Of a stretch of DNA of 64,000 nt, positions 4,220 through 64,000 are shown piece after piece. The position numbers and the translations under genes were made by a program. The DNA comes from Capitulum mitella. Lineage: Eukaryota; Arthropoda; Thecostraca; Pollicipedomorpha; Pollicipedidae. Under the pieces are notes generated by a model. It did not search any database, had not been told where the DNA came from, and saw only the letters and a program-made list of their open reading frames with translations. Each line of letters starts with the position of its first letter. Positions within the stretch are counted from its first letter, which is position 1. The stretch lies in the NCBI GenBank assembly GCA_030062745.1, contig CP099851.1, positions 8,496,393 to 8,560,392 on the forward strand, in the 5' to 3' direction.

Positions 4220-4672
<453 letters not shown>

Positions 4673-16852: not shown

Positions 16853-18500
16853 TTGGCGTCGTCGGCTGCCTGCAGTGAGGACGGTGTCAGTATCCGCGTG
16901 ATCCGTATGTTTTTTGATGCGATCGGCGCGGTGCTCCTGCATTCGGTCAATTCAAGTATCTCCTCAGATGTTTCAGATTCGTGGAAAAATTCCTTCATTT
17001 ATCCCAGCTTTAAATCCGGAGATCCTACCAACCCGCCTAACTTCCGGTCGATCCCCATCTTTCCTGTCGTTGCCAAGATTGTAGAGCGGGCCGTCCACCA
17101 ACAGTTCTACAATTTCCTGCCCCAGAACCACCTCCTTTCCCCACCTGAGCACGGGTTCCGTCCTCGTCATTCGACGGGAACCGCGCTGATATCCATATCC
17201 GACCACATCCTTTCAGCCAATGACCGTGAGGGGACGTCCCTACTTTGCCTACTGGATTTGAGCAAATGCTTTGGTGTGACAGACCACGCTAAACTCATGA
17301 CCAAATTGCAGCATCATGGAATCCGTATTTCTTGGTTTTCGACGTATTTCCGTTATCACACCCAAAGTTAAGCTAAAGCTAGCCTTACTGACGCTCAAGG
17401 AAGCCCTAAAATATCTGCCCCGCGCCCCAACAGCATCGGAATTTTTCAGGGCTCCGCTCTCGGCCCCTGCTCTACTGCGTCTTCGCAAACGGCCTCGGTC
17501 TGTTCGCTGAGGGCGTAGTAGTCGTGCAATACGTCCACGACACTCAAATTTTGGTTGTTGGTGAAAAGTCTGAATTCCGAAACGTCACTACTTTTTGAAC
17601 AGATCCTGGCTCCTCATTGATATCTGGTTTCGAGCAAACGGGCTAAAAGTAAATGCCAGTAAGACTCCGCTGATGCTGTTGGACAGCGCGCCAAATCTGC
17701 GTAACGCCCCAATGTCACCGTAAAATTTCGCGATTGCCATGCTCCCCCTGTTTCGGAAACTAAAAATCTGGGAATAGCCTTTGATCGCTGTCTCATTTGG
17801 GACTCCTACGTAACCGCCATTACTAGGCGCTGTTCCAGAACTCTGAGTGGCCTATCACATCTAAGGAGTTACCTGCCGCCGTCCGTTAGCTCCGCTCTGG
17901 TCAGTGCTATGGTTCTGTCGCTGGTCCGATATTGTAACTCGGTATATGGCAATGGTACTCGAAAAAAACTGTCTCGCATGCAGAAAATCATTAACTCTGC
18001 AGCAAGAGTTATTTTTGGCCGAAAGAAATTTGGTCACACAGAGGATCTGCTGCGGAGACTGGACTGGCTCAGCGCGGAGAAACTGGTCTCATACCACACA
18101 CCGAGCCGGGCGCACAAGATGCGCTGCATGGGTGGGCCTAAAATACTGGCCACCGAGTTTTCATGTGTTGCGGAGTATCACGAGCGACGCACCAGGCAGG
18201 ATGGCAAACTATATGTACCAAGATCTCACACGGAAATGGGTCGGAGACGTTTTTGCAGCCGTGCGGCGCGGCAGCTCAACTCATCGCCACCCGCTCTGCT
18301 ATTTCTATTTCCCTTCTTCTTTGTCGACTCGGCTTCCTCCTTCCCTGTTTGGTCGCCACCTGAGACGCCACCTAAGCAAAGATCAAGGGTGTTGCCGGCC
18401 CATCAATATGTTGTTTTGTGGCGTCTTGCGCACTTTTTAAGTTGTTCAAATGACAGTGACTGCGTGCATTGTATGTTTGGCAGTGATTGCATGGACTGAT
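16853..18500 (+). mobile_element. Decayed CR1-like non-LTR retrotransposon (reverse transcriptase)
   Basis: Broken frames give a recognisable LINE reverse transcriptase. SWKNSFIYPSFKSGD and KIVERAVHQQF begin the RT, followed by HGFRPRHSTGTAL, and motif A LLDLSKCFG (usual LSKAFD, so the second Asp is lost but the catalytic first Asp is kept). Motif B is GIFQGSALGP near 17440. Motif C reads YVHD instead of YADD at about 17530, destroying a catalytic Asp. The C-terminal region at 17909-18300 has YCNSVYG, RMQKIINSAARVIFGRKK and a late VPRSHTEMGRRRFCSRAARQ block, the pattern of CR1/L2/Crack-group LINEs. At least two frameshifts separate these parts. No 5' endonuclease is seen, so the copy is 5'-truncated and inactive. 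Confidence 0.85.
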
Positions 18501-31705: not shown

Positions 31706-32148
31706 AGTTGTTCAATTTTGTCCCGGGAACGGAAGTTGATGATCAGTCCTAACCTTTGAACTGTCTAATTTGGCGTTTAGGAAGACAGCATGAACCTTTC
31801 CTTTGCCCCATACATTCTAGCGATTTTCGAGATATAAAATATCTTTCGACGCATAGACGTATCGTACTCCTGTTTGCCGTGAGCCAAAAGTATAGCTTTT
31901 TGAATTATTCGGGACATTGATTTCACAAATTTTCAGAAGTCCAAAAATGTTATGTCCCATAGGTTAATCACAGACCTCCTAGGGACATCTCCAGGATCCA
32001 CCTTATGTTTTTTACCTGCATAATTTCTGAATGACAAACACTAGGGATCTTATGTTCCCATTGCACCTTTTATGTTTAAACAGGTGTGAGGTGAAAGAGC
32101 TTCACACAGGAACGCAAGGATGATGTATGCCAAACGGGCGTATTTTAA

Positions 32149-33348
32149 CCCTGTTCCCGGAGGGCTAGACGGTATGGTCGATTCCCGGCAGGGGGGCGGA
32201 TTCGGCCCCACCCTGAGATCTCGAGAACTACTCGTCCGATTTTATCGCAACAAACGGCAATCGTTTTGCCGTGACGTGAACTACATTTTTATAAAAAAAA
32301 GTTTTCAAAATTTTGAAATTTTCGGATGCAGGGGGCAAAAATGTCAAAATGGGGGGTACTTTTGGACTTATTATAACTCCGTTGTTTATCGACCGATTTT
32401 GATGAAATTGACATGAATCGAGAGATTGTGGATAAGGCTTTTACCATGGGTATACAAATCTGAAATTCTGTGAAAATTCATGGGCGTTCACAGGGTTTCA
32501 AAAATAGAAGGATTAGTTTCCTAACAAATGAATGAACAAAAAAGGTAAAAACACTTTTTTGGCCTCTGCTAGTCATGCTATGCTAAAGAAGTAAAAATCG
32601 CATTACAGTGTTTGTATAATGTTAGCATAGGCGGTGCAAGGGACATGAAAAAGGGGAACTGTCATGGCCACACGTTCTTCAGATCAACTTGTGACCTTTG
32701 ACCTTAAATGACCTCCAGTGACCTAGGTGTCACCTGGAATGATCTCATGTGCATTTGATACTATCTGTAAACGTTTTCAATCATTTGAATTCATTCTATT
32801 CCAAAAATTTCATTTTATGGCTATTGCGATATAGGGTACGCGCACTGACATTTTAGGTCATAGCTTCGTGACCCGACCTGATCTCAAACTGAAACTTGGT
32901 ACACAAGTAGAGGGCACCTTTTTACGTAATATATATTCCGGGTTTGGCATTTGAAAAAAGGCGCCGAAATTATTGCAAAAAAAATTGACTTTTTGACCTT
33001 GACCTGACCTTGTAAAGTGACCTGAGATAAACAAAATTTTGTGTACACATTGCCTAGCTATTCAGCTATACATCCATATAAAGTTTTAAGTTCTAGCTTA
33101 AAAACTCTGTTTTTGGCAGACATTTTCATTTTACCCTGAACATGGCCAAAAATGGCATGAGATGCCTCCCAAAAACGTTGCCTGGCTCCGCTCCTGAGCA
33201 AAGTAGAATTTTGAAATTTTGTCACAGCGCGTAGAAAGAATAGGTAGGAAAAGTCACCAGGTCTCGTAAAGCTGCGTTAAAAAGCCTGGAATTGGCAAGC
33301 AAAAAACCCGAGGGGGATGGATTCAGCCGCCCCCTGCCAGGAATAGGG
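32149..33348 (+). mobile_element. TTAA-family MITE (family 1), copy 1
   Basis: TTAA at 32145-32148 and 33349-33352 flank a 1200-bp element. The left end begins CCCTGTTCCCGG and the right end is CCAGGAATAGGG, i.e. terminal inverted repeats of the form CCCTATTCC(C/T)GG, followed on both sides by a G-run and GGATTC..GCC. TTAA duplications with ends starting CCC are the hallmark of the piggyBac superfamily. No transposase ORF is present, so the element is non-autonomous. The body holds repeated TGACCT half-sites, including a perfect TGACCTTTGACCT at 32692-32704. The family is shared with 41208-42414, 45869-47069 and 61122-61924. Confidence 0.85.
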
Positions 33349-33588
33349 TTAAACGTATTACGACGAAATTAAACATTTGAAATACATTGTGGGATTTCAT
33401 ATCGAAATGATGGCAAAATAGGCTGTTAAGAAATGTTGAAGTGTCTCCAAGAAGATCGTTCAGTGTAGAGGTTGTGTAGTTTTTAAAAAAAAAAAAGTTC
33501 GCACGTCTTATTTTCGTTCTAGAGGCCGTTTGACGTTCTATTACGGGCACTGCACAATAGGACGGCCGGTTTTACAAAACGTTCCGAA

Positions 33589-40968: not shown

Positions 40969-41207
40969 AGCTTTGAGACGTGACCGGTCTGCCGCGCCAC
41001 TCGGAGAGACGTCATGGCGGCGTTGAGAAATGTTATAATAAATCACTGCTTCCCGTCTATTTATTATCCTTATTTTAAAAAAACGTTCCGATTGGTCCGC
41101 TGGGGTGTTCTGAAGCCAGTGCCCTTGCTGAGCACTGTTTGTACAGACTGGCATGCACCGGATCGCGTAATTCCAGCCTAACTCCATAATTCGGAGGCGA
41201 AGTTTAA

Positions 41208-42414
41208 CCCTATTCCCGGCAGGGGGGGGGCGGAATCCGCCCCCCTCGTGTTTTTTGCTTGCCATTTCCAGGCTTTTTAACGCAGCTTCACAAAACTTGG
41301 TGACTTTTTCTAGGTATTCTTTCTACGTGCCGTAACAAAATTTCAAAACTCTATTTTGCTCAGGGGGGGAGCCAGGCAACGTTTTTGGGAGGCACCTCAT
41401 GCCATTTTTGGCCATGTTAAGGGTAAAAGAACAATGTCTGCCAAAGACAGAGTTTTTAAGATAGAACTTAAAATTTTATATGGATGTATAGCTAAATAGT
41501 CGGAACATGTGCAGATGTAATTTTGTTTATCTCAGGTCACTTTACAAGGTCAGGTCAAGGTCAAAAGTCAAAATTGTTTTTTTTCCTATAATATTGGCGC
41601 CGTTTTTTCAAATGCCAAACCTGAAATATATATTACGTAGAAAGTTGCCCTCTACTTGTGTACCAAGTTTCAGCTCGATATCAGGTCGGGTCACGGAGCT
41701 ATGACCTAAAATGTCAGTGCGCGTACCCTATATCGCAATACCCATAAAATGAAATTTTCGAAATAGAGTGAATTCAAATGATTGAAAACGTTTACAGGAA
41801 ATATTAAATGCACACGAGATCATTCCAAGTGACCCCAAGGTCACTGGAGGTCATTTAAGGTCAAAGGTCACAAGTTTATCTGAGAAACGTATGACCGTGA
41901 CAGTTCCCCCTTTTTCATGTCCCTTGCACCGCCTATGCTAACATTATACAAACATTGTAATGCGATTTGTACTTCTTTAGTATAACATGACTAGTAGAAG
42001 CCAAAAAGGGTGTTTGCCTATTTTGTTCATTCAGTTGTTAGAAAACTAATCCTCCTATTTTTGAAACCCTGTGAACGCCCATGAATTTTTTCAAAATTTC
42101 AAATTTGTGGAACCATGGTAAAAGTCCTATCCATAATCTCTAGATTCATGCCAGTTTCATCGAAATCGGTCCATAAACGACGGAGTTATAAGAGGTCCAA
42201 AAGTACCCCCCCATTTTGACATTTTTGCCCCCGTGTATCCACAAATTTTAAAATTTTTAAAATTTCTTTTTATAAAAATGTAGTTCACGTCACGGCAAAT
42301 TGATTGCCGTTTGTTGCGATGAAATCGGACAAGTAGTTCTTGAGATCTCAGGGGGGCCGTATCCGCCCCCCCTGCCGGAAATCGACCATACCGTCTAGCC
42401 CTCCGGGAATAGGG
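41208..42414 (-). mobile_element. TTAA-family MITE (family 1), copy 2, inverted
   Basis: This is the same element as 32149-33348 in the opposite orientation, about 1207 bp. TTAA at 41204-41207 and a mutated TTCA at 42415-42418 flank it; ends are CCCTATTCCCGG and CCGGGAATAGGG. The reverse complement aligns along its full length with copies 1 and 3, including the TATAACTCCGT...GAAAT segment and the TGACCT cluster (AGGTCAAAGGTCA at 41858-41870). No transposase. Its far end abuts a tRNA-derived SINE at 42425-42592. Confidence 0.85.
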
Positions 42415-42424
42415 TTCAAGTGCG

Positions 42425-45703: not shown

Positions 45704-45868
45704 AATCCAGGAAATTCCGAAGACCAATTCCAAAGTTATAACCAGGAAAGAAATTTTCAAAAAAATGTGGTTGCGTTCTAATGCCAGCATTTTTGTCAGG
45801 GAGGGGCCCAGCTAACACTGACCGCTCAAAACCACAAAGATTCTCGAATTTTGGCCACTTCCTTTTAA

Positions 45869-47069
45869 CCCTATTCCCGGAGGGCTAGACGGTATGGCCG
45901 ATTCCCGGCAGGGGGGGGGCGGATTCGGCCCCCCTTGAGATCTCGAGAACTACACATCCGATTTTATCGCAACAAACGGCAATCGATTTGCAATGATGTA
46001 AACTACATTAAAAAATAAATTTTCAAAATTTTGAAAGGGGTGGATACAGGGGGCAAAAATATCGAAATGGGGGTGCTTTTGGACTTCTCATAACTCCGTT
46101 GTTTAGGGACCGATTTCATTGAAATTGACATGAATCGAGAGATTATGGATAGGACTTTTATCATTGATACACGCATTTGAAATTTTAAGAAAATTCATAG
46201 GCGTTCACAGGGTTTTAAAAATAGGAGGATTAGTTTTCCAAAAACCGGATGAAGAAAAAAGGCAAAAGAACTTTTTTGGCTTCTGCCAGTCATGTTATGC
46301 TAAACAAGCACAAATTGTATTACAATGTTTGCATGTTAGCATAGGCGGTGCCAGGGATATGAAAAAGGGGGAACAGTCATGGTCATCTGCTGTTCAGGCC
46401 AACTTGTGACATTTGACTTAAAATGACCTCCAGTGACCTTGGAGTCACTTGGAATGATCTCGTGTGGATTTAATATTGTCTGTAAACGTTTTCAGTTATT
46501 TCAATTCACTCTGTTTCAAAAATTCCATTTTATGGCTATTGTGATATAAGGCACTTTCACTGACATTTTAGGTCACAGCTCCGTGACCCGACCTGATATC
46601 AAGCTGAATCTTGATACACAAGTAGAGGGCACTTTTCTACGTCATATGTGTTCCGGGTTTGGCATTTCAAAAATACCGCCGAAGTTATTACTATAAAACC
46701 AAATTTTGACTTTTGACCTTGACCTGGCCTTGTGAGGTGACCTCAGATAAACAAAATTGTGCTTGCACTTTTCTCCACTATTTAGCTATACATCCATATC
46801 AAGTTTTAAGTTCTATCTTAAAAACGCTATTTTTGGCAGTCATTTTCCTTTTATCCTCAGCAGGGCCAAAATTGGGCTGAGGTACCTCCCAAAAATGTCG
46901 CCTGGCTCCGCCCCTAATCAAACCAGAATTTCGAATTTTTGTCACAGTACGTAGAAAGAATAGTTAGGAAAAGCCACCAGGTTCCGTGAAGCTGCGTTAA
47001 AACCCTGGAATTGGCAAGCAAAAAACCCGAGGAGGGCGGATTCAGCCCCCCCCCCGGTCGGGAACAGGG
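45869..47069 (+). mobile_element. TTAA-family MITE (family 1), copy 3
   Basis: A 1201-bp element between TTAA at 45865-45868 and 47070-47073, beginning CCCTATTCCCGG and ending CGGGAACAGGG. It is collinear with copy 1 over its whole length. The TGACCT cluster near 46405-46440 is partly mutated (the first sites read TGACATTTGACTT). G-runs near both ends differ in length between copies. No coding capacity. Confidence 0.85.
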
Positions 47070-47712
47070 TTAAAGTTATGGAAATCTGGATTTCTTTACT
47101 AAAAACATCAGAGCGCAGGGGACTCGGGCCCCTCTTAGATGTACATAGGTGTCGGATTTCTGATGTGTTCTTTAGTCAGGTCCTGGATATTTACCCACAT
47201 ATCCATACATGCCTGCTTTCTTTGTGCACGTGCATGTGTTGGCCTTTTCGTGCTATAAAAGAATGGAGATTTTACTTTAGGGACAACACGCTGGTTTCTT
47301 TGGCTTGCTAGTGCACAGACGATGTTTGGGTGCACAAATCTGGTGAGTGGGTTCATGTGCACACGAAAAGAGATACACAGTTACACCTCTGGTTATGAAA
47401 CAAGGTAGCTTCCATGGGCGCTATCCGTTTTTTTTTTGTCAATAGGGGTGACGAACGTATCACAAGTTCTGAATACGTCACGTCGTCCATGCGGCGCTCC
47501 ACCCCGTCCCTCCCTCCGCGGGGCAGAGAGACTGTTCAGGGCCTGCGGGGTCAGCCAGAGCTGTCTCCGTCCTCGCGCTGGGCAGAACACTGTTAAATAA
47601 AACGGTGTGCAGCTCCTGGGTGCCGATGATCTGGTGCACCACGGGGACAAGCGGCCTCAGCAGTCCACTCCCTGAAAATGGAACAGTGCTTTTGAATAAA
47701 TAGCCAGTTTAA

Positions 47713-49612: not shown

Positions 49613-52600
49613 ACGCTATTTCGCTTTGATCCCTATTTTGAACTACTGAAACGGTGTTTCAAGCTCTCGCTCTTCACGGGCAGCAGCAGCTGACAGGCAG
49701 TTCATTTGACGCGGTGCAGCACCACACACGAAGCACACCATGGAGCTCTTAGTGTCTGTGATGGCGCTGACCGCTGTCCCATTGGTGACGGTGAGCTGCA
49801 GGTCGCACTGCACTTCCACTCCCACTCTTGTTGAGCTCGCAACACTGACTGCGCCCAGCTGCGACCAGGTTCACAAAGGAGAAAAGTTGAGGGTTGTAAA
49901 AAATTTACAGACTGTTTTTACATAAGTTGTATAATCCAGTTTCAGAACGTAGAATTTTACAACTGACAACTATATAAGGAAAATGCGCAACTTACGCGGA
50001 CATTATGAGCAAAAATCTACGATTTACGTACAAATTTTGCTTTTGAGTTTCATAAACACATCCAGAGCCGATTCTACGAAATTTGTCGGAGTTGTGGATA
50101 TGAACGCGTAGAAATCAACGATGCCTACCCCTAGCAGAAAATTGGCTTTTATGAGGATATACAATTGGAAAACTGATGAACTTTCTATAGTGCACCGAAG
50201 ACACATAAATCTAACAACTGCACAATAATGTCAGTTATAAGGTGTAACAACGACAAGATATCAAATGCAAAAATCGGGCTAAAGTGACCTTGGTGTATGC
50301 TATTTTGTTTTTGATGTATGCTATTCAAGAACTCTACCGGCAAAAAGTCGATTTGGTACACTTCAAGTATAATACCAAAATATTACGACTAAACTTTGTT
50401 CTGCCCTATGTTTGGTACCCTGATGAACTCCGTCGGCTGAAGGTTTTGTGGGCCCATTGTCATGGCAACTCGCAAACAAAAAACCACGACTTGCCGAAAA
50501 ATTACATACTACAGCCTACAACCTATGAAACTTTTATGAAACCGGTGTAAGTTGTAGACTCTAAATAACACACCTACAGCCTACAACTAGGCGTAAGTTG
50601 TGGTTTTTCCTTGTAAAACTGGTTGCTGGCCGATCCCGTGTTGGGCCCTCTGGTGTTCTACTCAGCACATGGCGGGCGTTTCTTTTCCATATTGAATGCG
50701 AAGCGGCCGACAATGTTTGGTGGACCACATGGGTCGGATTAATCCACACTGGATCACCTTGAATCGCCAGTTGTAGGTACACGACTGTAGTGGAGAACAA
50801 ATTTTCCTCTCTGATTTCATCCGACTCATCTATAGCTTGATTGTACACTGGCTGGCCTGAGGCACCGTCAACAGCCCCCCCCCCCAACTTCAACTTAAAC
50901 ACAGCCACCAGCTTTTCCGAATGCTGGCCTTACGCCGCCGGTAACCCATCTGTCAGGCCGGCAACCAGTCGCTGGGATGTGTAGTAGATTTCCAACTGCC
51001 TGCGTGATAGGTCAACTAGAAACGACCTCGCTCTTCTTCCTCACGAGTCAGCCAAAGAGAAAATCGTCTGAGTCCAACTTTCATTCCCTTCACAGTCAAC
51101 CACGTAAGACCTACAGCAGCATCCACACAACAGAGAAGCCCTTCCACAAGGCGTTCAAAATCACGAGCATGAACGACGAAGAGCGGTCTCCTGTTTTTAT
51201 TCCCTGCAAACGGAAACGATCCGGGCCAGGAGGCACAAAAATCACGTGATGTCGATCAATAAGTTATGACAGTTATGCAATCTAACAATGGGCATAAACC
51301 GGTGGTGTGAGGGGCTATGGACCAATCAGAGTTAGAGGTATCGCCCCGCGACTCCGAGAAACACCGGATGTCAGTCTGCATTGTTTGCCGCTGAGACAGA
51401 CTTTTTCAAGGGAAGTATCAAGTCACATTATTGATAAAGAACGTCAGTTGGCATAACACTCCCACTGTTGTGACAAGACCCTGGGCGTCCCAGACGTCTT
51501 AGTCTGAGTGCGACAAACTCGGCTTTGAGGCGCTGAGGCTGGAGATTTTAGTACTGGAGGTATTTGTTCAAAACATATTTGACATCCATGTCTTTAGGAA
51601 CAAGAAATCCACTTTACTATCAAAGAGCTTTAGGAAAATGAGTAATTTTGGTCTGAATCCTCTTAGAGTCATTAGGTGCATTTTGTTGTAGGGTGTGTGG
51701 TCGAGAAGTGCTCGCAGTTTAACTTCCGCTACAGTGCCCTAAATCGCATGGAGTTCCTAAATCGTGGATTATTTTTGTGCGCGTTTTTTGAGGCTCCTTT
51801 TTTTGTGTGCTCCACCTCATGGCAGGAAGGGAAGATATTTGCCTTGGCAGCCTCATACGTTGTTCGTCGCTACAGGGTGTGCTCTCCATGGGTGAGATCG
51901 GATGCGACGCACAGAGCCAATGTTTTCTCGGCAGACACAAATCTGGCCTTGTTAAGACGCGAGCCCTGCATTGCGCGTCGCACTTTGGCTGGTTTGGCAG
52001 AGGTCGCACCAGCCTCCTTTACCCGGCATCACCTGACGTATTTTTGTACCCGCGACCTCCTGGGGACGTCAAAAAGGGCACCCCATTCTATCTCATGATC
52101 TAACCGTCTGATCTGAACCGGTCTGCCACCAATCGATAGCTCTGAGTCCTGCGGTTCAGGAAATACCATATCAGCTCTGTTCACATGACTGATGACGCCA
52201 CATGTCACGTAAAATGCATGACACGGTGTCGGAAAAACTGACATCAGTTTGTACCTCATATTATTGGCAGTAGTGGTCTTAGAGCCTTCAGCTGGGTATC
52301 AAACGAAAGGCCGCAATCTTCTGCATCAAATGCAGGCCAAAATGTTAAAAAATGCTAGGTCGAGGTCAGTCTAGGTGAGACGAAATACTGGTCTTAGTTT
52401 ACATGTCACAGATCGGTACTTAGCCGCGGCCAGTTTGACCCACGTGAGAAAAAGACGACAGTGAAACCATCTTATGAACAATTTTGCATTATCTGCGTTT
52501 CATCCTGTCAAGACCAGCCTGGGTCAGATTAAATACTGTTATATTCAAACATGACATCCTTTTGTACAATATAATTTTTTGTATCTTTTTGGGGCCGTAT

Positions 52601-53986
52601 ACTATGAAAATCCCAATAATTCATGAATTATATTCGCCAATGTTGTAGAAAACAAGCATGTTCGCGCCACCGCCCGAGGAGGCGAAAACATGCATGCAAG
52701 AGTTCACTTATGACGCCATATCTCTATGACCTGACCTAGGAGGGAAACGGTTTTAATGTCAAAATATGTGGTATTGATTGTTGAAGATATGCTGAAAATT
52801 TGGTTGCACTGACTCTGACGATTCAAAAGTTATTGGAGACAGTGGCGTCGGGTTAAGACTTAGGCCAGATCCGATGACTCTAGCTCGCGTAACGTGGCGA
52901 ACAGCATCTACCAGCGCCAATGTTTCGTGCTACTCGGCCATGTCACCTCCCGAACGGCGATTAGATCTATAGCTAAGCCCTCACTGAATGCCCCTGGCGA
53001 CCGCCCACCGCCATCAATCTACCTCACCTCTAAATAGATAAGACAAAAGTTAAGCAATCATTAATCATGTAAATTAAGCGGACGCACTAGTTTTCCAGGC
53101 CTTAGTAGTACTTCACACATGCGCTTTGAATTTCGAGCTGGCATGACATTCACGACAAGCGACTGGTTCCTCTTACTTCGTGGGGTCATTGGTATGGCAC
53201 TAACTTTTACCTCACAATCAAGGAGAAATTGCAAGGTGCCCGGGAGTATGGGTATCGATAATACGTGGATTCGACGCTCGTACAGAATTGGTCAAAAAAT
53301 CAGTTCGGGCGAATTCGAGGCCCAACTGATCCCTGAAGGGATGGCGCCAATAGACAGGGTGCCATTGATCGCACGGCTCCTTCTACACCGTTAGCTCTTT
53401 TCGAGAGTGCTAAGTCTTTTAACCGCGAACCATTGCTAGAAATGCAAACGTATGGGTTGTCAGCACACGATTAACTAGTAACGAAACAACTCAAATTCTT
53501 ACCATCATCGTCATCGCCTGGTTTTGTGTAAGTAAAATGAGCGATGAATAGGGAGCCCTTCGTAAAAATAACTAGGATCTTCATCTTAACTGTACAATCA
53601 GCCAGACATCTGATGGTGCATGAGGGACGTCTGGGTGTTCGTCATTAACACGAACTACGAGAGCTCGTTGACAGGTGACGAAAGCAACGTACACGTGGAG
53701 TTCGCTTGCTGGTCATGACAAAGATAAGTCTGAGCAGCGTTTATAGCTTCCCGCCAGAATTCAAACGCGATTCTCTAAACGCCATTTTACAAACAAGCAG
53801 ACGAACAGTGTTTCCAGTGCGTTGCCGACGTGCGGAGGAGGTGGTAACTGTTCGGTTTATTTCGTGATATTTTTATGTTCGGGTGTACTGTGAGATGCAC
53901 AAACACATTCTGATGGGTTTTGACAGACATGGTGCACAGGGGCGATTACGGGTTTGTTGCCCTAGAATTGCATATCATTATGAGGT

Positions 53987-54028
53987 ACGGAGTAGGTAGT
54001 TTGCGTATACATAAACTACCTACTCCGT
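53987..54028. repeat. Perfect 16-bp-stem hairpin
   Basis: ACGGAGTAGGTAGTTT, a ten-base loop, then its exact complement AAACTACCTACTCCGT. No family recognised; not a tRNA. Confidence 0.95.
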
Positions 54029-54975
54029 CTACCACAGGTAAACAGACGAAGGTAGTCGCTGAAAAGTTTTCTCCAGTATGTTGTATGTTTCCGGTCTTAA
54101 ACCCGAGCCAATGGTTAGGCTAGCACCTGGCTTGCATCCGGTTTTTCGTGTTGGTGTGCTCCATCCCGGGAAGACTGAGGCCCTCGGCGATTAATTGTCC
54201 TGGAATGCGGCACGACACTGCTCCAATCGCTCCGAAACCAGCAGGTTGACTCCGCCGGTCAGCGTGAAATAAAACCAAAAAGAAAATCTCAGGCAAGTCA
54301 AATTAGGTCATTCTCAACTCCCTTCTTTCCCCGCTATCGGTTAAGTCTGTCCAAAACGCGCAGTATAAACTTCAGGAAATCGTTGCGACAAGACAATTCG
54401 GTCAGGTACAAATGCATGTTTTTCCCTCAATTCCGCAGCCAAGTAATATACTTTGAGACCAGGTATTATCGGAACGTAGTCCACCATCGCGTGTTTAGGT
54501 CACGTGATGTGATTCCAGTGCATGCATTATTTCGCTGACCCACCTGTGTCCTGAGTGCTGATGTTATAAAACTCTGATTGTCTTTAAACAGAACGTTTTC
54601 ATGAACAAAGGTTTGTAAACTCATTGAAAGTCGATGCAGAATATCTGCGTCGCAGTGAGTTAAAGGTTCATTGGGCAGTTATTGCTCTGGTACGGGGAAT
54701 TGTCATCCTCTTCTGGGGGCCAAAAATAAATTTATTTTGGTGTTTCACGGCAAAAGATAGCATTGTTAGGTTTCACCAGGCTTAAGATGCGTATTAACTT
54801 ACGACTTTCGCTGAAAACACCAGTCAATGGAGAAATGGAGGATTTCTACAGGATGTTCTGTCAGATTTCTTTTAAGTATTTCTAGGAACATTCTTCAGAG
54901 GTTCGGATGAGTCCGACAACCAAATTAGTCGCGATAGTTTTGTAGTTTACCCCAAAATTGTTGGGAGGGCGTTAA

Positions 54976-56436
54976 ACGCCCCACTTTTCTTGCTGCGTGC
55001 GCCGTAGCTTTGGTTTGGCGAGGCGCAGCCGCGCCGTACGTTCAGTACCCTACGATACATCATTTCTGCACATTTGAAAAGAATGGGTAAGGTCATCGAG
55101 GGTCATGCCAAAATCATGCCGCAAAGACAGCCATGTATTACAATTTGTCCTTTTTTCGACTTCGCTTGATCTTCGTCGATGCTTCTGAACAACATGTCGG
55201 CAGCTTCAAGTACAGGCCACAATATTATGAGCGGTGAATGTAGACTACCCTTTATCTTACCTAAGGTCATCACGGATCAAATTTTACAAGCACAATCCCT
55301 TGAAATACGTTGTCATTGTGCGCGTTGTGACAGCTATTTGAAGACTTTCTGGGCACCCATGAATATTTACTGGCATGTACTGTGATCACAATGTCACGAC
55401 AGGTCAGTGTGGGCCACCCATATCCTCACCCAAGGTAATAATAAGTCAGATTTTGCAATGATCATGATCATGATCACAATGATCAGCAATGCAATGCAAT
55501 GAAAAAAATGACGATTTTTCAAACACGGTGACAATGTGCACGTTGTGACAGCCATTTTGAGACTTTGGACCGCGTATGGATATTCAGGGGAACATTAGTG
55601 TGGTCACAATATCGTGAGATGTCAACGAAGGCTACCTATGAACTCACAGAAGGTCATCAGAGGCCACATTTTAAATCACGGTTGTTTTCTAGTGCAGTGT
55701 CAATGTACGCGTTGTGACAGCCATTTGAAGGCTGAGTGGTGCAGGTATGAGCATTCAATCACGTTTTATGGAGTTCTCGGCCCCCACTGACTCAGAAAAC
55801 ATGTGTTGTGGAAACTCATGTTGAAACATTCCATTTGACCCTCACCTCTGCCTTGGCATTGCATGACCATCGATATTATTTAGTCTAAATAGAAACTACC
55901 AGCTGTCAACAGCATGCCAATTGGTACAGTTTGCACCCCGATCGCTTTGCGGTTGCCATTAAGCGTGGTTGAGAATTTTTCGAAATTTTGGGATCCGTGA
56001 CCCGTGTCTGACGGAAAGCCTCGTGAATGACGTCATCCGTGACCCCGGTCTCTCAGTTAGGTGTCAAGGATGTAGATTGAAACTCATGCTGTCAGACTTG
56101 CTCCTGCCATGGCTCTGAATCGCCGCCGCTGGTTATTGGCCGCCCCTCCATTGACCTTTGGACCCTTCGCTGGCCTGCCCGTCCGATTTGTATTGCCTGG
56201 GGCAATTAGACACCAGCCGTCCTCGGCTCAGTGCTCATTGGTTGGTCTCAGATGAGGGGACGAGCAATACAGCTGCCAGAAAGCCTAACTGCAGAGCGAT
56301 CCAGTAGCATGAATTAATATCGACATCCTTGACACACAGCTGGCTGAGTTTAGTCACACTGCATTGGGGTCATGCAATCGCAAGCTATCGATCAGCGTAA
56401 TCGGTCCATTTGTTCTTGAGTTATGGGGAGGGGCGT
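54976..56436. mobile_element. Possible third TTAA-flanked element
   Basis: TTAA at 54972-54975 is followed by ACGCCCC, and GGGGCGT is followed by TTAA at 56437-56440, giving a 1461-bp segment with a 7-bp inverted terminus. Both junctions are palindromic around TTAA. The interior contains imperfect direct repeats marked by GTGCGCGTTGTGACAGC at 55318, 55536 and 55705, about 218 and 169 bases apart, and (R)AGGTCAT motifs as in the other TTAA families. The termini are short and there is one copy only, so this is tentative. Confidence 0.4.
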
Positions 56437-56577
56437 TTAACGCTCTCCCCCTAGTGAGCCGACGGTGGCGCCACAGCCCAGCAACCGCCAGGTTATTATC
56501 GACTGAACTGACGTAACAACTGTCATATTAAGCTTAGTATGTTAAATGTAAATTTAAGCCCTACATCAGTTTTTACG

Positions 56578-56810
56578 GCATGTCTGGCAGACATGTGCCT
56601 GGATCTCGATGGAATGCAGGTTATCCATGTACTGTATTCAACACTTCGTTGACCTGGGCGGGTCACCGCGTCATCTCGGAAAGGTCGTGTCCATCACGAG
56701 CCAGGTGGTGCCCAGATGACGCAACACTTACCCTGGTCAGATCAGAATCCGACGCAAAACGAGGATAACCCGCATTCCATCGGGATCCCGGCACGTATCT
56801 CATGTCTGGA
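56578..56810. repeat. Hairpin MITE-like inverted repeat
   Basis: The arms 56580-56625 and 56765-56810 are inverted: GATCTCGATGGAATGCAGGT and TTATCC pair with GGATAACCCGCATTCCATCG and GGATC, and CATGTCTGGCAGACATGTGC pairs with the GCACGTATCTCATGTCTGG end. The loop is about 140 bases. No duplication could be assigned. Confidence 0.6.
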
Positions 56811-57054
56811 ATTAGGGACCATTATGTCGTAAATTCGGCAACTCTGGCCAACGGGAGACATTTCCGATACTCAGATCACTGGCCGTAACTGACAGGACAT
56901 GGAATCATGATTCGGGATTATGGGAGAAATGATGGTTGAGCTCGAGGTCCGACCGGCAAGTTTCTTTTCTATTACGCCTCATCACGTGTTAAAATCGACG
57001 TTACACATCTGAACAAAATGTGCATCGCCAGTTGGCGGAAGTGGCACGGCTGTG

Positions 57055-57331
57055 CAGGCACGTAGCCAGGATTTTTTTCAGGGGGCCAGATGACAAATGT
57101 TGCCATATTCCACTGGCATAGGGCGAAATGTATAGGAAAAAAAACAGCAATTTATGTCATTTACCTCATATTTAAGCACGAGAAAAAATATCATGTTCGT
57201 TTTTGCAACAAATACATAATCGTCATTACGCATTCCTGCGAAATCGCTACGTGTCTAGTACAGACCGCTTGGCTCAGAGGGGGCATGTCCTCCATGCCCC
57301 CCTTGGCTAGGTTCTTTCGGCTGTACGCCTG
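57055..57331. mobile_element. hAT-like MITE, second copy of the CAGGCACGTAG family
   Basis: Starts CAGGCACGTAGCCAGGATTT and ends ...GTACGCCTG. Its left half matches the reverse complement of the 62244-62494 element (GATGACAAATGTTGCCATAT region), and its right half matches too (AGACCGCTTGGCTC followed by GGGGCATG). It is therefore in the opposite orientation. The flanking bases do not form a clear duplication, so it is older or rearranged. Confidence 0.7.
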
Positions 57332-57631
57332 CAGGAATGGTTCGTCACCCAAGGTACCCCTTCTCAGCTCGGTTGTTTGGTGTTTATTTCATGATCTATC
57401 TTTCGGTCCGCATAGGTACCGTAAATATCAGCGACATTGGCATTAATGAAAATCGTGAAGAGTGAAATTATTTTAAGTTTCGGCTTGCTGAGTGTTGATG
57501 ATGGTCGTAAATTACAGCAGATATCTTCCTGTGAGATTCCAAGAAAGATAAACCGAGCAAAACCAATGAGAACGGCCCGATAGAGACCGCTCTTTCAGCA
57601 TCACAGACGAGGTTTAGTGGTACGTTGTAAT

Positions 57632-57661
57632 CAAGCGCCTCGCTTGATGGCGAGGCGCTTG
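57632..57661. repeat. Perfect 12-bp GC-rich hairpin
   Basis: CAAGCGCCTCGC, loop TTGATG, GCGAGGCGCTTG. No poly-T follows, so it is not a Pol III-type end. Confidence 0.95.
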
Positions 57662-58240
57662 TCGGCCGGCTGAGGTAACGCCTGCTGCAGGTGACGTCAC
57701 AGTAAGGGGACCAAGGCTCCCCTCCCCAGTCGGCGAGCCGAGCCGAGGGGAAGGGCCGGAGTCGATCGTGCGTGCTGAATGGCCGACTGACCGCGCCGGC
57801 CGTACTTGACTGGTGGCGTCACGGAGGGGGACCGGAGTCTCTGAGTTTACACGAGGAAACTGATGACTGCAATCAGAGGGGACTGAACAGACTAATTGTA
57901 TTAAGTAATAAAAAAAAACAGACAAAGTGTGGCTATTCGATAGGAATTTATTTTTAGGTCCGTTATTTGAGCTCTTTCGAAAAAATGGAATACTTTCTTG
58001 GTAAAACTGTTAATAAGTTTACAAAATAACACGTGACCTCAAAACGCCCGCTGATTGGTGTGACGTCATAAACTATGTACCGCGTCCTCGCCGCGCTTGC
58101 CTGTTGCATGCAAACGTGTCCGGTGCGTCGTTTCTGTGATAGTCGTCAGCAAATTTCTTTTGAATCTGAATCTGTGATTATCTTCCGAACCATGGAGCAT
58201 CATTCGGAGAAGTGCTTACGCTGTTTTGTACCTATGAATA

Positions 58241-58738
58241 TCAGTATACTGTATCAGTATACACGACACAAAGACCGATCCCCATCTCCTTCTCAACAGC
58301 CCTCAGAACCAATGACTCCAACCTTCCTCCCCTTTCCATAGCCTTGATGTCCTTAATCTTTGTGACTTTGAAGACACTCATGGCCACAACACCATCCTTA
58401 TTCAGTGAGCTGTGAGCCACTGCATATGCTTTGGAGGCCGTGATCCGGCCAAATCGGTTCTTGAGCCAGACTGCGGATCTAGCCTGAGACACAGTTCTGA
58501 AACGAACTGCCTCGCACGTTTCAATAATCATCGTAGTGCTGCAGGCGAGCACAAACTCATCAAAGTCACTGATTCTACACTCCAGAAACTTATCCATTAG
58601 TCGGTCCACGTATAAATGGCCCAGATCATCCGAGCTGTCGCCCAGGTGACTGAACGCCAGGCTTGTCCTTTGAGGTGGTGCACGCATTAAGATAGCTTCC
58701 AGGAAGGCATCACCATCGCTTGCTTTTGCATGTGTTTT
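58241..58738 (-). CDS. YqaJ-like nuclease domain, N-terminal half
   Basis: A 165-codon open frame on the minus strand begins directly after an AG (RC ...AGTAG|AAAACA) and ends at a stop at 58241. It contains SDGDAFLEAIL, then DFDEFVLACSTTMI, RTVSQARSAVWLKNRFGRIT and ASKAYAVAH, and finally KAMERGGRLESLVLRAVEKE. The Q...W...R.GRITAS block and the later RG..LE...L are the signature N-terminal helices and first acidic catalytic region of YqaJ-like PD-(D/E)XK nucleases. The second half of the fold (SPDG and ExK) would lie further 3' but is not recognisable before the stop or in the next 2 kb of minus strand. The frame is otherwise free of lesions, so it may be a true exon whose last exons are missing or unrecognised, or a truncated copy. 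Confidence 0.62.
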   Translation of the reverse strand, partial: KTHAKASDGDAFLEAILMRAPPQRTSLAFSHLGDSSDDLGHLYVDRLMDKFLECRISDFDEFVLACSTTMIIETCEAVRFRTVSQARSAVWLKNRFGRITASKAYAVAHSSLNKDGVVAMSVFKVTKIKDIKAMERGGRLESLVLRAVEKEMGIGLCVVYTDTVY

Positions 58739-58817
58739 CTACTCTGGCTTCTTTGCGCAGGCCACCGATGGCAATGCGTGTTTTCATCAATAATGACACT
58801 AGAGAGAGGCGCCTTAC

Positions 58818-58902
58818 TCTAGCACGATTCAGCAGACGTAACTGCTTTCTCTGCACTCCAACGATCCAGCCAGGCCAGAAAGGCGGTTGCATGCTTACCA
58901 GA
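58818..58902 (-). pseudogene. Exon with second half of SWIM finger, interrupted by TAG
   Basis: On the minus strand the segment after an acceptor-like ACACAAG reads SGKHATAFLAWLDRWSAEKA and then TSAESC, matching the KH.AFL.W.HR.SEE pattern that completes the SWIM zinc-binding site begun in the exon at 60827-60626. The next codon, 58821-58819, is TAG where the family normally has a tryptophan or tyrosine after the cysteine; a TGG-to-TAG change would explain it. A donor-like A|GTAAGG begins at 58817. The stop, and the phase mismatch with the neighbouring exons, argue that this copy no longer makes a full protein, although a sequencing error or exon-boundary misreading at this one codon cannot be excluded. 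Confidence 0.55.
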
Positions 58903-58920
58903 CTTGTGTTTGGTTCCACT

Positions 58921-59070
58921 TAATTGGAATCGACTCCGACTCAATAACAAGGCAAATGACTTCGAATCCGAGTCCATTGCAACCAGTTACAAGTGGAATC
59001 GATTCCTAATCCAATTCCAATGTGGCTAAAACTGCTTGATTCCGAATCCAAATCCGATTCGGACAGATAA
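58921..59070 (+). repeat. Degenerate GATTCCGAATCC-type repeat
   Basis: Many variants of GGAATCGATTCC, GATTCCGAATCC and CCAATTCC follow each other. A similar stretch occurs at 60455-60605, in the same orientation, and the two bracket the intron between the two SWIM half-exons. Confidence 0.8.
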
Positions 59071-59122
59071 TGTAAATACAATATAATGATAACGTAATAC
59101 AGATCAATGTAATCAATAATAA

Positions 59123-59155
59123 ACTGTATATATATTTATATGTTTATATATATAG

Positions 59156-59190
<35 letters not shown>
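59123..59190 (+). repeat. (TA)n microsatellite
   Basis: Interrupted then pure TA repeat, inside the intron of the SWIM-YqaJ locus. Confidence 0.95.
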
Positions 59191-59192
<2 letters not shown>

Positions 59193-59636
59193 TCTGCCCC
59201 CTACCCCGGTGTATTAGGCAGGTCCCCTCCCCCAATGGTTTCTATCAGTTTTCAAGAGGGGTAGAAAGGTTTTAAGATGGTAAATGATAACCAAATATTA
59301 AAAATGAAAGTTTATGCCAATCAAAATAAAGTGTCCAAATCCGTTGAAAAACTCATTCGGGGTTACGTTTGGTGGTCAGGCTCTTCCTCTTCCTCCCCAT
59401 CCGTCCACCTCCAATTATTTATACAAAACGTTGCCCCTGACTGCAGTTACCTAAGCCATAAATTTCCATCACGACCATTCAAGCTTCTCGGTTGTATTAC
59501 GCGCTTTGTTCGTTGCTTGGCTCACCTCACGCAAGATGGACTAATCACGGATAAACATTATCACGCTTGGCACGCACCCAACAGTATTCAGCTCTGGCTA
59601 ATTAACCTAGACTCGGCAGCTCTGCCAGTCTCTCGC

Positions 59637-59666
59637 GATAATGTGGCGCTCATGCGCCACATTATC
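59637..59666. repeat. Perfect 13-bp hairpin
   Basis: GATAATGTGGCGC, loop TCAT, GCGCCACATTATC. It lies in the intron of the SWIM-YqaJ locus. Confidence 0.95.
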
Positions 59667-60454
59667 AGCCATTGCCTAGCGTCACCAAATTGCATGAGTA
59701 GTATTGGTTATGGCATCTAGCACTCAGGAACAGAAAATATTTGAATACAAACTGTTGTCATAAACAAAGGAAAACTTTCGTTGTGTGCCTACTGTTGACA
59801 TTGTAAGAAACTGAGGTAAGATAATAAGCATGACGTGGTACCTGAATATTAGCATGGCGTTTCCGCACTATTTATAATGTACAGTTCTGCGCTCTTGCAA
59901 CGTGCCTTAAGTCAAAAACAACATTCGTAACTAGTGAAATGACTTCAGGCAGTAAGAGGAAGTATTTACGCCCCATTTACACACTATTTACGACGCACAG
60001 TTTTGGCGTTGCTGCGACATGCCTCAAGTCAATAACAATCGATATTCGTCACCAGGCAAATACTTATGAGGCGGTGAAAATACGTGGAGGTATGACAACA
60101 CTAACTAGGACCTACTTACTTACCCCCAGGAAACTGGTGTACCAGTGATGTCTGTGTATCCTTTTCTTACTTTCTTTGTCTTGTCTTGAGTCGAAAATCG
60201 TTTGATCTCATGTTAATTGTTCAATATTTTGGAGCACAGCCTCATTCCCAATTACCTGCCAACCTACCTGACAAGCAATGTCCAGCTCATGTCAGCATAA
60301 ATAAACAGACCATTGACATGAAGCTGTCCAAAACTGCTCTCAAAGTGAAGCTTTTATTGCATACCCGTGCATAGCTGTTAATCGTTATATTACATTTTTA
60401 GATACCAAGGCAGGGTAAGTTAAACTGATAAAAGCGAAATCATACATTTTGACT

Positions 60455-60605
60455 TTTAATTCGCTTCCGATTCCAATGTTTCCAGGGAGTAACCGAATTA
60501 ATTCCGAATCCGACTCAACATATTTCCCAAGTGAATCGATTCCGAATCCAGTTCTGGGCCAATTGGAAGCCAATCCGGATTCGGCTCCGATTCCGCTGGA
60601 ATCGT
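60455..60605 (+). repeat. Degenerate GATTCCGAATCC-type repeat, second block
   Basis: Shares CAAGTGAATCGATTCCGAAT with CAAGTGGAATCGATTCC of the 58921-59070 block. It ends about 20 bases before the donor of the SWIM exon. Confidence 0.8.
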
Positions 60606-60625
60606 GCACAAGTCTGATACTTACA

Positions 60626-60827
60626 CCTGCAGGCAGCAGCAGCACAGTCCATGCACCTTGCAGTGACCACTTCTTTTTTCACCTCATCAGTGACAGCAGT
60701 CACACAGCACAGTTTTGACGAAACCTTGTGCTCCGCGGTTATGCGAGCACCCACTTCGCAAGATGTGCCCTCGCGCTTCATTCGGGCGTACCCAATAGCA
60801 CTGTCCCCATATTGCTCTCCGGCAGAC
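60626..60827 (-). CDS. Exon with YGDSAIGY motif and first half of a SWIM zinc finger
   Basis: The acceptor CTTATTTTCAG precedes base 60827 and a strong donor (TGCAG|GTGTAAGT, or GGT|GTAAGT two bases later) follows at about 60626. Between them one frame reads SAGEQYGDSAIGYARMKREG, then a basic region containing ITAEHKVSSK, and ends with VTARCMDCAAAAC. The YGD.AIGY...KREG block and the following C.DCAA cysteine pair are diagnostic, in my recollection, of the SWIM-containing half of this family; the remaining zinc ligands (CKH) are expected in the next exon and are found there. The reading frame is intact through all 67 codons. This is the best-preserved exon of the locus and supports a real spliced gene rather than a processed copy. 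Confidence 0.62.
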
Positions 60828-61121
60828 CTGAAAATAAGCTTGCGGTTTTGTACGAAGCCATAACTGATGTCAGTAACGGTGGAATGTATTCCAGCAAGGA
60901 AAGGGGGCATCGGTTACCTTTCAAGCCATTTTTTCCGTGGAACGTCCTAGGGAAAACGCTAAATTTCACCAATTAAAGTGTGGGGATACGGTGGCCCTGT
61001 GCAACCCTCCCCCTCCATCTATTCCGCTTTCTGTGACTGGTACAGATAATGTAAATGATGCAAATGTTGCATGTGAACTAATAAAAACACGTCAACACTG
61101 ATGTGTAACACCATGGGTTAG

Positions 61122-61924
61122 CCCTATTTCCGGAGGGATACACGGTATGGCTACTACGTATCCGATTTCATCGCAACAAACGCAATCGATTGGCCATGAC
61201 GTGAACTACACTTTTGAAAAAAGAAGTTTTCAATATTCGGAAAAGGGTGGATATTAAAATGGGGGTACTTTTGGCCTCCTTATAACTCCGTTGCTTATGG
61301 ACCGATTTTGATGAAATTGGCGTGAATCGAGAGATTATGGATAGGACGGTGCACACATTTGAAATTTTGAGAAGATTCATAGGCGTTCACAGGATTCTAA
61401 AAATAGGAGGATTAGTTTTTCAACAATCGAATGAACAAAAAAGATAAAAGCACTTTTTTGGCTTCTGCTAGTCATATGCGAAAGAAGTGCAAATTGTGTT
61501 ACAATGTTCGTATAACGTTAGCATAGGTGGTGCCAGGGACATGAAAAAAGGGGGATTGTCATGGTCACATGCTCTTCAGATCAACTTGTGACCTTTGACC
61601 TTAAATGACCTCCAGTGACCTTGAGGTCACTTGGAATGATCTTGCGTGCATCTAGTATTATCTGTAAACGTTTTCGATTACTTGAATTCACCCTGTTTCA
61701 AAAATTCCGTGTTACGGCTATTGTGATACTGGGTGCGCGCCGAGCTGAAACTTTGTACACACGCCCCTGCGCAGAATAGAATTCCAAAATTTTGTCACAA
61801 TGCGTAGAAAGAGTAACTAGGAAAAGTCATGGAATCTCGTGGAGCTGCGTCAAAAAGCCTGGAATTAGCAAATAAAAAACCCGAGGGGAGCGAATTCAGC
61901 CCCCCCCCCCTACCAGGAGTAGGA
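61122..61924 (+). mobile_element. TTAA-family MITE (family 1), copy 4, internally deleted
   Basis: About 803 bp. The left end CCCTATTTCCGG follows a mutated TTAG; the right end reads GGAGTAGG followed by ATAA. It aligns with copy 1 but lacks part of the left subterminal region and several hundred bases between the GCGCGC-like segment and the right third. It keeps a perfect TGACCTTTGACCT at 61589-61601. It lies in an intron of the minus-strand SWIM-YqaJ gene (between the exons at 62696-62519 and 60827-60626). Confidence 0.8.
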
Positions 61925-62243
61925 TAAAGGTGAGCAAGCCATGCAGAATCTTCAAAGAAAATGAAGTAAAGCTAACTGAAGTGTGTCTTGCACACATTTA
62001 TCACATTTTTTGTATTTTTTAAGTACCTGGCAGACTGAAAAAACTGCAAAATAGCATTACTATGTGGCATTGCATAAAACGAAAGGTTGAAAAAGTGTCT
62101 GTTATGAGCCCCCGGCTGGGACACATTCCGTCGCTAGTGACCAAAACAGTCTTAAAGTGAACATACTGTGACAAACTTCCAATGCACTAACGTCACCAGC
62201 ATGATAGACAGTTTTTGTTTTCACATACTTACGCTCTGTTATG

Positions 62244-62494
62244 CAGGCACGTAGACAAGGAGGCCGCAGGGGTCATGCCCCTCCCGAGCCAAGCGGTCTT
62301 CACTAGGAATTTAGCAACTCCGCACGAATACGGAATAGCGGTCATTATATGCTACGAAAGCAAACATTATATGATCTTCCTGTGCTTTAAGTACGACGTT
62401 AGTGGCATAAAATTGTTTTTTCCTCCAAATTTTGGAATACGCCATACAAAATTTGACATTTCCCCCCACGAAAAAAATCCTGTCTATGTGCCTG
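62244..62494. mobile_element. hAT-like MITE with perfect 8-bp duplication
   Basis: CTGTTATG occurs directly on both sides (62236-62243 and 62495-62502), flanking a 251-bp element with inverted ends CAGGCACGTAGAC and (RC of the right end) CAGGCACATAGACAGGATTT. An 8-bp duplication with CAG-type ends is characteristic of hAT transposons. It has no ORF of note. It lies in an intron of the SWIM-YqaJ gene, just 3' of the second exon, and is related to 57055-57331. Confidence 0.85.
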
Positions 62495-62518
62495 CTGTTA
62501 TGGATCAAAATATGATCA

Positions 62519-62696
62519 CTTTGCTTTCCGTAAAATAGATCCGACATATGAATATATCTGTAGTTTGATATGCTTCATAGCAGGATGAATGTCAGTCTTA
62601 AAAAAACTCCTAAACATGAAGGTGATGACATGAGTGAGGTCACCTGGGTCAGCTTTGACGAAACCTAGCTCTTGTTCTCCTGTCCTGAAACGAGCC
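62519..62696 (-). CDS. Putative second exon of the SWIM-YqaJ gene
   Basis: The acceptor is strong: a pyrimidine-rich stretch (RC of about 62700-62726) ends in CCTCAG immediately before 62696. In the frame set by exon 1 the segment reads through a hydrophobic block with FMFRSFFKTD at its core, a pattern seen at the N-terminus of SWIM-YqaJ proteins shortly before the conserved YGD.AIGY motif, which in this locus lies in the next exon. No convincing donor is visible before the frame stops at 62516-62518; the only GT (in TATGTCGG, near 62534) is weak and out of phase with the next exon. The exon end is therefore undefined, and this may be one of the decayed parts of the gene. A hAT-like MITE lies just downstream at 62494-62244. 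Confidence 0.4.
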
Positions 62697-63238
62697 CTGA
62701 GGAAATTCAGAAGTAAGAAAGATATTGCCAAGCATGCAGGTACGAGTGCGGTAATGCAAATGTCAAAATACATGTTGTTTTGTGATGACATTTACCTTGA
62801 AACGTCAAGTAATAAATCCAAAACCTCTAATTAATATGAGTCCGTACTTGCTAATTTTTAGGAATTATTGACATACAATAGACATATACCGGACGTTTTC
62901 AGTACAGTGTTCTCCACCAACAGAATGTAATGAAATGTGGTCATGATGAAGATCGTGGACAATCTTCTAGATTGTCTTAATAACCACATTAGTATAATTA
63001 TAAAACTACTTGACCACAATGATATTTCCGCTCATTTTTCTCGCCCTCACAATTACAAATGGCCGAAAATTGCTATGTGGTCTCACTAAATAATAACATT
63101 TATTTTTCAATTATGTGTTTTCTCAAAATGCAGCACGCCACATTTCCCAAAAAGGCATTCTGTTTCATACGCGATTCCTGGATCGATGCCGCAGAAGACA
63201 CAAAACGGTTTCAACCGCACCAGCTTGGAACAACTTAC

Positions 63239-63393
63239 CTGGCCTTTCCTTTTCTCCATGTCTGGTCCACTGAGACCAGTGGCGTCCAAGCCAGCAGTGC
63301 ATCGAGCAGCCGTAAGATCTCTAATAGGCAGCTCTTGCAAACGCATACCAAACGCCGATATCCGCACAAATGCCAGGGCTGCGTCCCCTCCAT
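63239..63393 (-). CDS. Putative first exon of the SWIM-YqaJ gene
   Basis: An ATG at 63393 on the minus strand opens a frame starting MEGTQPWHLCGYRR that runs 51 codons plus two bases to a perfect donor, CCAG|GTAAGT, whose intron begins at 63238. Spliced to the acceptor at 62697 the frame stays open (phase 2 joined to G, giving an Arg codon). The sequence just upstream is CpG-rich and carries a TGACGTCA palindrome at 63432-63439, as expected of a promoter-proximal position. I do not recognise the peptide itself. The alternative frame (ending DMEKRKGQ before the donor) hits a stop soon after splicing, which favours the frame given. The start is uncertain because no transcript evidence is available. 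Confidence 0.4.
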
Positions 63394-63480
63394 CGTGTCC
63401 CCTCGCTCCGCGGCTGCTTGGACCCAGTTTATGACGTCATAGCGAAAGCTCCGCCTTTTTTAGACAAGTTTAAAACGATA
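63394..63480 (-). promoter_or_regulatory. Possible promoter-proximal region with CRE palindrome
   Basis: TGACGTCA (the CREB/ATF consensus palindrome) at 63432-63439 lies about 40 bases upstream of the proposed start codon at 63393 in a locally CpG-rich stretch. No TATA box is placed convincingly. The call depends on the exon 1 assignment. Confidence 0.2.
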
Positions 63481-64000
63481 TATCTTGGGACCGAATAGGT
63501 GAAAAAACAAAGAGGGAAATCACCAAAAAATAATGCGGAATGTCACAGTGAAGTTACTTCACAAGCGACGAGTCTATTCCCGGCGCGTCGCGGCCACCGA
63601 CCGCAGAGCATGACACCGCTAATTAGCCACGCAACCATCGGACGTAACAGACCACTTTAAGCTCACGCTCGACAACTACAACGGACTTCAAGCCGTTGAA
63701 TGGGAGAGATGCCTGTCCACTAGCGCAGGCCTGCAGTCTCATGACTTTCCGCAGACCTGAGATGCAGAGCATCGAGCCAGATTATTACACTTTAGCAAAA
63801 ATGTGATTCGCCATTGGATTCGGTAGATAAATTTAGGGGGGCCAGAAGAAATCTACTTAGTAAGGTATCGGCTTAATTTCATATCGGTTTGTATTTCCAC
63901 GCAAGGCTCGTGTTGTCGGGCACACCCAGCAGACGGGCTCGGTAACTTTGGTCCCTTTTCGTTCCGAAATTGGTATTATGTCGGGAGGAACTTGTTATAC

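Follow-up and report, generated by a model that had tools for sequence, protein, structure and literature searches.

ISL2EU DNA transposons bear a second open reading frame (ORF) with a YqaJ exonuclease domain, and the biochemical function of this ORF is stated to be unknown in PMC4482050; PMC9179366 describes the second ORF likewise. Further settings of animal YqaJ genes are the clam—where YqaJ is counted among expanded transposon and endogenous-virus domains (PMC7826175)—the scallop, where YqaJ genes are listed among contracted families alongside transposase, reverse transcriptase, and integrase (PMC10225492), and weevils, where YqaJ families were removed as transposon-related (PMC13289751). 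The SWIM zinc-finger motif is given as CxCxnCxH in PMC8161499. Here, we describe a locus in a 64,000-nucleotide stretch of Capitulum mitella contig CP099851.1 (assembly GCA_030062745.1), hereafter called the window, in which a SWIM-like finger lies ahead of a YqaJ-like nuclease half. Judged by its sequence, the locus is very probably a defunct copy, battered by transposons, of a gene that joins a SWIM-like finger to a YqaJ nuclease.

Architecture of the locus

The original prediction had read this locus as a spliced gene, whose SWIM finger is divided over two exons and followed by the nuclease, with transposons residing in the introns. The coding-like pieces of the minus strand are indeed found where it placed them—as separate pieces spread across 63.4–58.2 kb of the window—and a finger-like CxxC...CxH does precede a YqaJ-like N-terminal half, as borne out by the open frames and a YqaJ profile match. 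Listed in the direction of the minus strand, the finger, the nuclease half, and what separates them are as follows.

60625–60826, minus strand: first half of the finger with the preceding segment (SAGEQYGDSAIGYARMKREG...VVTARCMDCAAAACR); a coding relic within the open frame 60518–60913 that ends at the transposon target site and has no Pfam match
60617–60624, minus strand: left copy of the target-site duplication (TSD), GTAAGTAT, containing the GTAAGT that looks like a donor at this break
58899–60616, minus strand: putative 1,718-bp hAT-like non-autonomous DNA transposon with the terminal inverted repeat (TIR) CAGACTTGTG and GAATCCGATTC-type repeats close to both ends
58891–58898, minus strand: right copy of the TSD, GTAAGCAT, 7/8 identical to the left copy
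58822–58896, minus strand: second half of the finger, KHATAFLAWLDRWSAEKAVTSAESC; a SWIM-like coding relic
58819–58821, minus strand: in-frame TAG stop of the finger frame
58739–58818, minus strand: decayed linker, SKAPLSSVIIDENTH... in the finger frame; finger and nuclease frames disagree in the three-frame translation
58241–58738, minus strand: N-terminal half of a YqaJ-like nuclease that carries the motifs RFGRITAS and GGRLES and matches PF09588 and phrog_434

A transposon within the finger

Elements of the hAT type generate 8-bp TSDs and bear short CAG...CTG inverted repeats as well as subterminal repeats. The 1,718-bp stretch that separates the finger halves (minus strand, 60616–58899) shows such ends. 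It starts with the 10-bp TIR CAGACTTGTG and closes with its exact inverted copy CACAAGTCTG, making the TIRs perfect, and it is flanked by an 8-bp duplication—GTAAGTAT at 60624–60617 and GTAAGCAT at 58898–58891—with 1 difference, both copies reading GTAAGYAT. Related short repeats are found subterminally, close to both insert ends (repeats D2, D10, and D11), and the 10-bp TIR has exactly 2 occurrences in the window, both at the insert ends. The whole window was also scanned for perfect 10-bp TIRs starting with CA, 100–4000 bp apart, with 8-bp flanks of at most 1 mismatch and at least 3 kinds of bases. The insert is the sole case, and all 30 windows simulated from a first-order chain gave none. 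Neither of two internal frames revealed a transposase: 59265–59717 matched just DUF5554 (E 0.064, below cut-off) and 59846–60145 matched no family. Hence, the insert is called hAT-like from its TIRs and TSD, with no transposase found.

Scripted closure of the empty site yields a single open frame over the junction, RCMDCAAAACRCKHATAFLAWLDR, in which the cysteines and the histidine are spaced as CxxC-x6-CxH. Together with the insertion flanks, this closed site identifies the GTAAGT at 60624 as the first six bases of the TSD. The split of the finger is, as read from these ends, the insertion of a non-autonomous hAT-like transposon and not an intron.

Finger and nuclease

The first half of the finger is embedded in the open frame 60913–60518, and the second half is located at 58896–58822. 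Animal finger–YqaJ proteins presumably share the CxxC-x6-CxH spacing along with similar flanks (AIGY, TPEHKV, CKHA, and AFL-WL). From its sequence, the finger is treated here as SWIM-like and not as a tested member of the SWIM family.

The best supported piece of the locus is the open frame 58738–58241 of the minus strand with 165 residues. A frame of this length is within chance (reached in 20 of 200 simulated sequences) and the evidence, hence, rests on the profile matches. Residues 91–153 match positions 2–72 of the 150 positions of Pfam YqaJ (PF09588) with 19 bits and an E-value of 0.0018, and the matching 67-residue piece on its own reaches 21.5 bits and an E-value of 0.00031—both below the Pfam gathering cut-off of 22 bits. 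A second library, PHROGs, assigns residues 78–153 to phrog_434, a RecE-like recombination exonuclease (E 7e-5). As controls, the 67-residue piece was searched after reversal (one sequence) and after shuffling (nine sequences): YqaJ appeared in none of the ten, and other families appeared in two, with E-values of 0.04 and 0.06. Matches of that strength can, thus, be put down to noise, which the YqaJ match exceeds. NCBIfam returned nothing for the nuclease half, and a sequence search of the PDB returned just three matches (E 0.22–0.65).

The N-terminal motifs R-x-G-x-I-T-A-S and G-x-x-x-E helix—which, like the C-terminal catalytic Asp and E-x-K motifs, we take to be those of YqaJ—are present within 58241–58738 as RFGRITAS and GGRLES. 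The similarity to YqaJ stops near 58280, with the end of the open frame at 58241. A search of all six frames of the window for motifs did not find, downstream of the frame, the C-terminal catalytic motifs (SPD[GA] and E-x-K) in a plausible order. Open pieces of the minus strand near the locus of at least 33 residues, linked by X, contained neither a second nuclease half nor a transposase according to Pfam; these pieces comprised all of those for 60950–64000 and 1,643 of 1,875 letters for 55000–58260.

Weak matches below the cut-off that turned up near the locus were PrkA (E 0.0087 and 0.095), DUF4272 (E 0.03), HSL_N (E 0.3), TXNDC16_2nd (E 0.015), NCF1_PBR_AIR (E 0.083), and HpxZ (E 0.42). All of them are taken as chance, since the shuffled controls gave roughly similar E-values (0.04 and 0.06), PrkA and TXNDC16_2nd being somewhat stronger.

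Decay of the gene

Read in its own frame, the second half of the finger ends in ...TSAESC, directly followed by a TAG stop (58821–58819). The three-frame translation places the finger and the nuclease in different frames, so that a frame change is required between them. The in-frame stop, the frame change, the C-terminal half that was not found, and the insertion together mark the locus as a pseudogene.

The sequence itself, thus, shows a non-autonomous hAT-like element between two copies of GTAAGYAT that divides the finger coding sequence. Besides this insertion, the copy bears the in-frame stop after the finger and the frame change ahead of the nuclease, and its C-terminal catalytic half was not found. 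The protein of an intact copy would presumably use its finger to bind DNA and would trim DNA ends in the course of transposition; the broken copy should yield no such protein.

Weighing the alternatives

Could the locus nevertheless be a real spliced host gene, in which an intron splits the SWIM finger, the YqaJ nuclease follows, and transposons sit within the introns? Canonical-looking signals are literally in the sequence, as the original prediction had noticed—GTAAGT at 63238 (CAG/GTAAGT) and at 60624, TTTTCAG at 60834–60828, and TTCCTCAG at 62704–62697—and so are repeats inside the supposed introns, namely the 1,718-bp insert and those seen by self-comparison. However, the GTAAGT at 60624 lies inside the 8-bp TSD. 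Joins across the insertion were enumerated from 8 GT donors at 60670–60609 (all of those in 60677–60568) and 10 AG acceptors with a first exon base at 59034–58893, and among these 10 acceptors this donor has no in-frame partner. The exon pair as predicted, ending at 60626 and resuming at 58902, is in frame only with an intron that starts with TG instead of GT. Moreover, the first 4 bases of the predicted exon 58902–58818 are transposon end and the TAG stop is contained within it, the frame changes before the nuclease, and the C-terminal catalytic half was not found. TSD, in-frame stop, frame change, and splice-frame enumeration, thus, reject the spliced-gene model; we consider a working spliced gene very unlikely. 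A transposon-born intron—the insertion being spliced out at the cost of a few residues, so that a finger–nuclease mRNA persists—is extremely unlikely. An in-frame join does exist between CAG/GTGTAAGT at 60626 and the AG before 58918, but it loses the last cysteine of the finger and adds 8 residues (SGTKHKSG) before KH, and its frame then runs into the stop at 58821. That chance matches alone account for the locus, without any gene relic, is extremely unlikely as well. The frame length, the missing NCBIfam and SWIM matches, and scores under the Pfam cut-off would fit such a reading, but two libraries match exonucleases over the same residues, YqaJ is absent from all ten controls, and the closed empty site forms one continuous frame with a finger-like Cys/His spacing.

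As for the parent of the relic, the accessory gene of an ISL2EU element is the likeliest candidate, and we favor it with modest confidence, since animal YqaJ genes are printed as the ISL2EU second ORF in PMC4482050 and PMC9179366. This printed placement speaks against the alternative that the relic is a pseudogene of a host single-copy SWIM–YqaJ gene or a viral insertion, unrelated to ISL2EU. In favor of the latter, neither a transposase nor ISL2EU ends were found in the stretches scanned, and animal YqaJ domains are labelled as endogenous viral elements in PMC7826175; overall, we regard such an unrelated origin as rather unlikely. The statement of the original prediction that these proteins have no known role overlooks this setting: the genes have a printed place as the second ORF of a transposon, although PMC4482050 does call the biochemical function of that ORF unknown. 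One might speculate, tentatively, that the animal protein with a SWIM-like finger and YqaJ acts as the transposition partner of ISL2EU, in which the finger would bind the element ends and the nuclease would trim, and that the relic is one dead copy thereof.

Several observations weigh against a dead finger–YqaJ gene of ISL2EU descent. The YqaJ scores, as mentioned, are under the cut-off. The spacing of the finger is CxxC-x6-CxH and not the CxCxnCxH of SWIM, and the SWIM identity asserted earlier was not confirmed: Pfam SWIM (PF04434) gave no match at E limits of 1 and 10, either for the predicted exon join or for the halves linked by X. Splicing over the insertion is formally possible, as 15 of the 80 enumerated GT..AG pairs keep the frame of the second half without meeting a stop before it. 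CRCKHATAF is restored by none of these 15 joins—the Cys-rich end is trimmed, residues are added before KH, or both. The enumeration covers joins across the insertion alone, with donors in 60677–60568 and acceptors from 59050 onward. Of the 86 stop-free frames of at least 100 residues, 28 were scanned, including all 18 at 50–64 kb, and neither these nor the shorter X-linked pieces of the minus strand near the locus contained the ISL2EU transposase (DDE with helix–turn–helix [HTH] and THAP). The window ends at 64000, and a neighboring transposase could lie outside. Lastly, ISL2EU-type ends—an A/AT/T duplication with TIRs starting with GG—were sought by comparing 52000–58300 with 63300–64000, and no candidate reached 11 of 14 matches.

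A 14-bp exact inverted match, TGACGTCATAAACT (58061–58074 and 63426–63439), was considered as a pair of ISL2EU ends and discarded; 3 of 20 shuffles score as high or higher, and it is possibly due to chance. As a candidate ISL2EU second ORF, only the broken N-terminal half of the YqaJ domain is present. The word SWIM has no occurrence in the ISL2EU papers PMC4482050 and PMC9179366, which do not describe a protein that unites this finger with the nuclease. A literature search for SWIM together with YqaJ showed no paper with this pair as a topic by title: PMC7826175 is matched by the name SWIMS, and the available text of PMC10225492 is without SWIM. No tblastn-confirmed relative was obtained in viral contigs, in phages, or among bacterial and archaeal species genomes. 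For an animal sequence, this absence is expected, and it is no evidence for novelty.

Other features of the window

Upstream of the finger, three further features fall within the bounds of the predicted gene.

63239–63393, minus strand: possible first coding piece, MRLQELPIRDLTAARCTAGLDATGLSGPDMEKRKGQ, without profile support
62249–62495, no strand assigned: short repeat inside a supposed intron, an inverted relative of 57054–57312 with 69% identity
61118–61928, no strand assigned: degraded copy of a 1.2-kb repeat with TTAA-CCCTATTCC ends inside a supposed intron, recognized by self-comparison and end pattern

The piece at 63239–63393 has, in one frame, what we take to be a weak SAP-like look; the profile search is unsupportive, with no Pfam match to SAP for this piece. 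The short-repeat pair 57054–57312 and 62249–62495, the former lying outside the gene, contains GCAGGCACGTAGCCAGGATTTTTTTC. The 1.2-kb repeat, bearing the ends TTAACCCTATTCC...GGAATAGGGTTAA, is dispersed over the window (32143–33353, 41202–42419, 45863–47074, and 61118–61928, with a partial copy at 6305–6759). By self-comparison, its three long copies are 84–89% identical, with 78–81% for the 61-kb copy and 69–78% for the 6-kb pieces. We assume it to be a piggyBac-type non-autonomous element with a TTAA target.

The window as a whole is eukaryotic-type DNA, rich in repeats, in which ARAGORN detects no tRNA and Rfam no family at the gathering score. Retroelement remains—fragments of a reverse transcriptase (RVT_1, E 9.8e-9) and an RNase H (E 5.7e-6)—are located on the plus strand at 16826–17368 and 25285–25818. 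Two related minisatellite arrays with a 38-bp unit, 13616–14215 and 15522–15877, are in inverted orientation with 89% identity over 361 bp, and a run of ~446 bases at 4222–4667 is almost pure T.

Implications

Cut in two by another transposon, the decayed finger–nuclease gene, whose type is frequently borne by transposons of animals, is most likely an ordinary, transposon-ridden genomic fossil of a known kind rather than a functioning spliced gene, and no function is expected of this copy. The corrected gene model illustrates that a TSD which happens to read GTAAGT can mimic a splice donor—an error that might recur in repeat-rich genomes. It further ties this type of animal YqaJ gene to a printed transposon group instead of an orphan host function.

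Comparison with known systems

Set beside the SWIM zinc finger (PF04434), the relic has a Cys-rich segment that ends in CxH ahead of the nuclease, but differs in its CxxC-x6-CxH spacing and in lacking a profile match. The nuclease half agrees with PF09588 and the phage RecE-like exonucleases of phrog_434 in profile positions 2–72 and in RFGRITAS and GGRLES; it departs from them in that no C-terminal half bearing the other catalytic residues was found, and in a score under the cut-off. The insert resembles non-autonomous hAT elements of the miniature inverted-repeat transposable element kind by its 8-bp TSD (7/8), short TIRs beginning with CAG and ending with CTG, and subterminal repeats, whereas no transposase was found in it and its superfamily is assigned from the ends. 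Another described counterpart of the locus may be the second ORF of ISL2EU—a DNA-binding protein with a YqaJ exonuclease, from the PHIS/Harbinger-like superfamily. Compared with it, the relic is broken, and the DDE/HTH/THAP transposase, the TIRs starting with GG, and the AT duplication were not found in the stretches searched. What both have in common is a YqaJ-type nuclease in repeat-rich eukaryotic-type DNA and, in the relic, a possible DNA-binding segment ahead of this nuclease.

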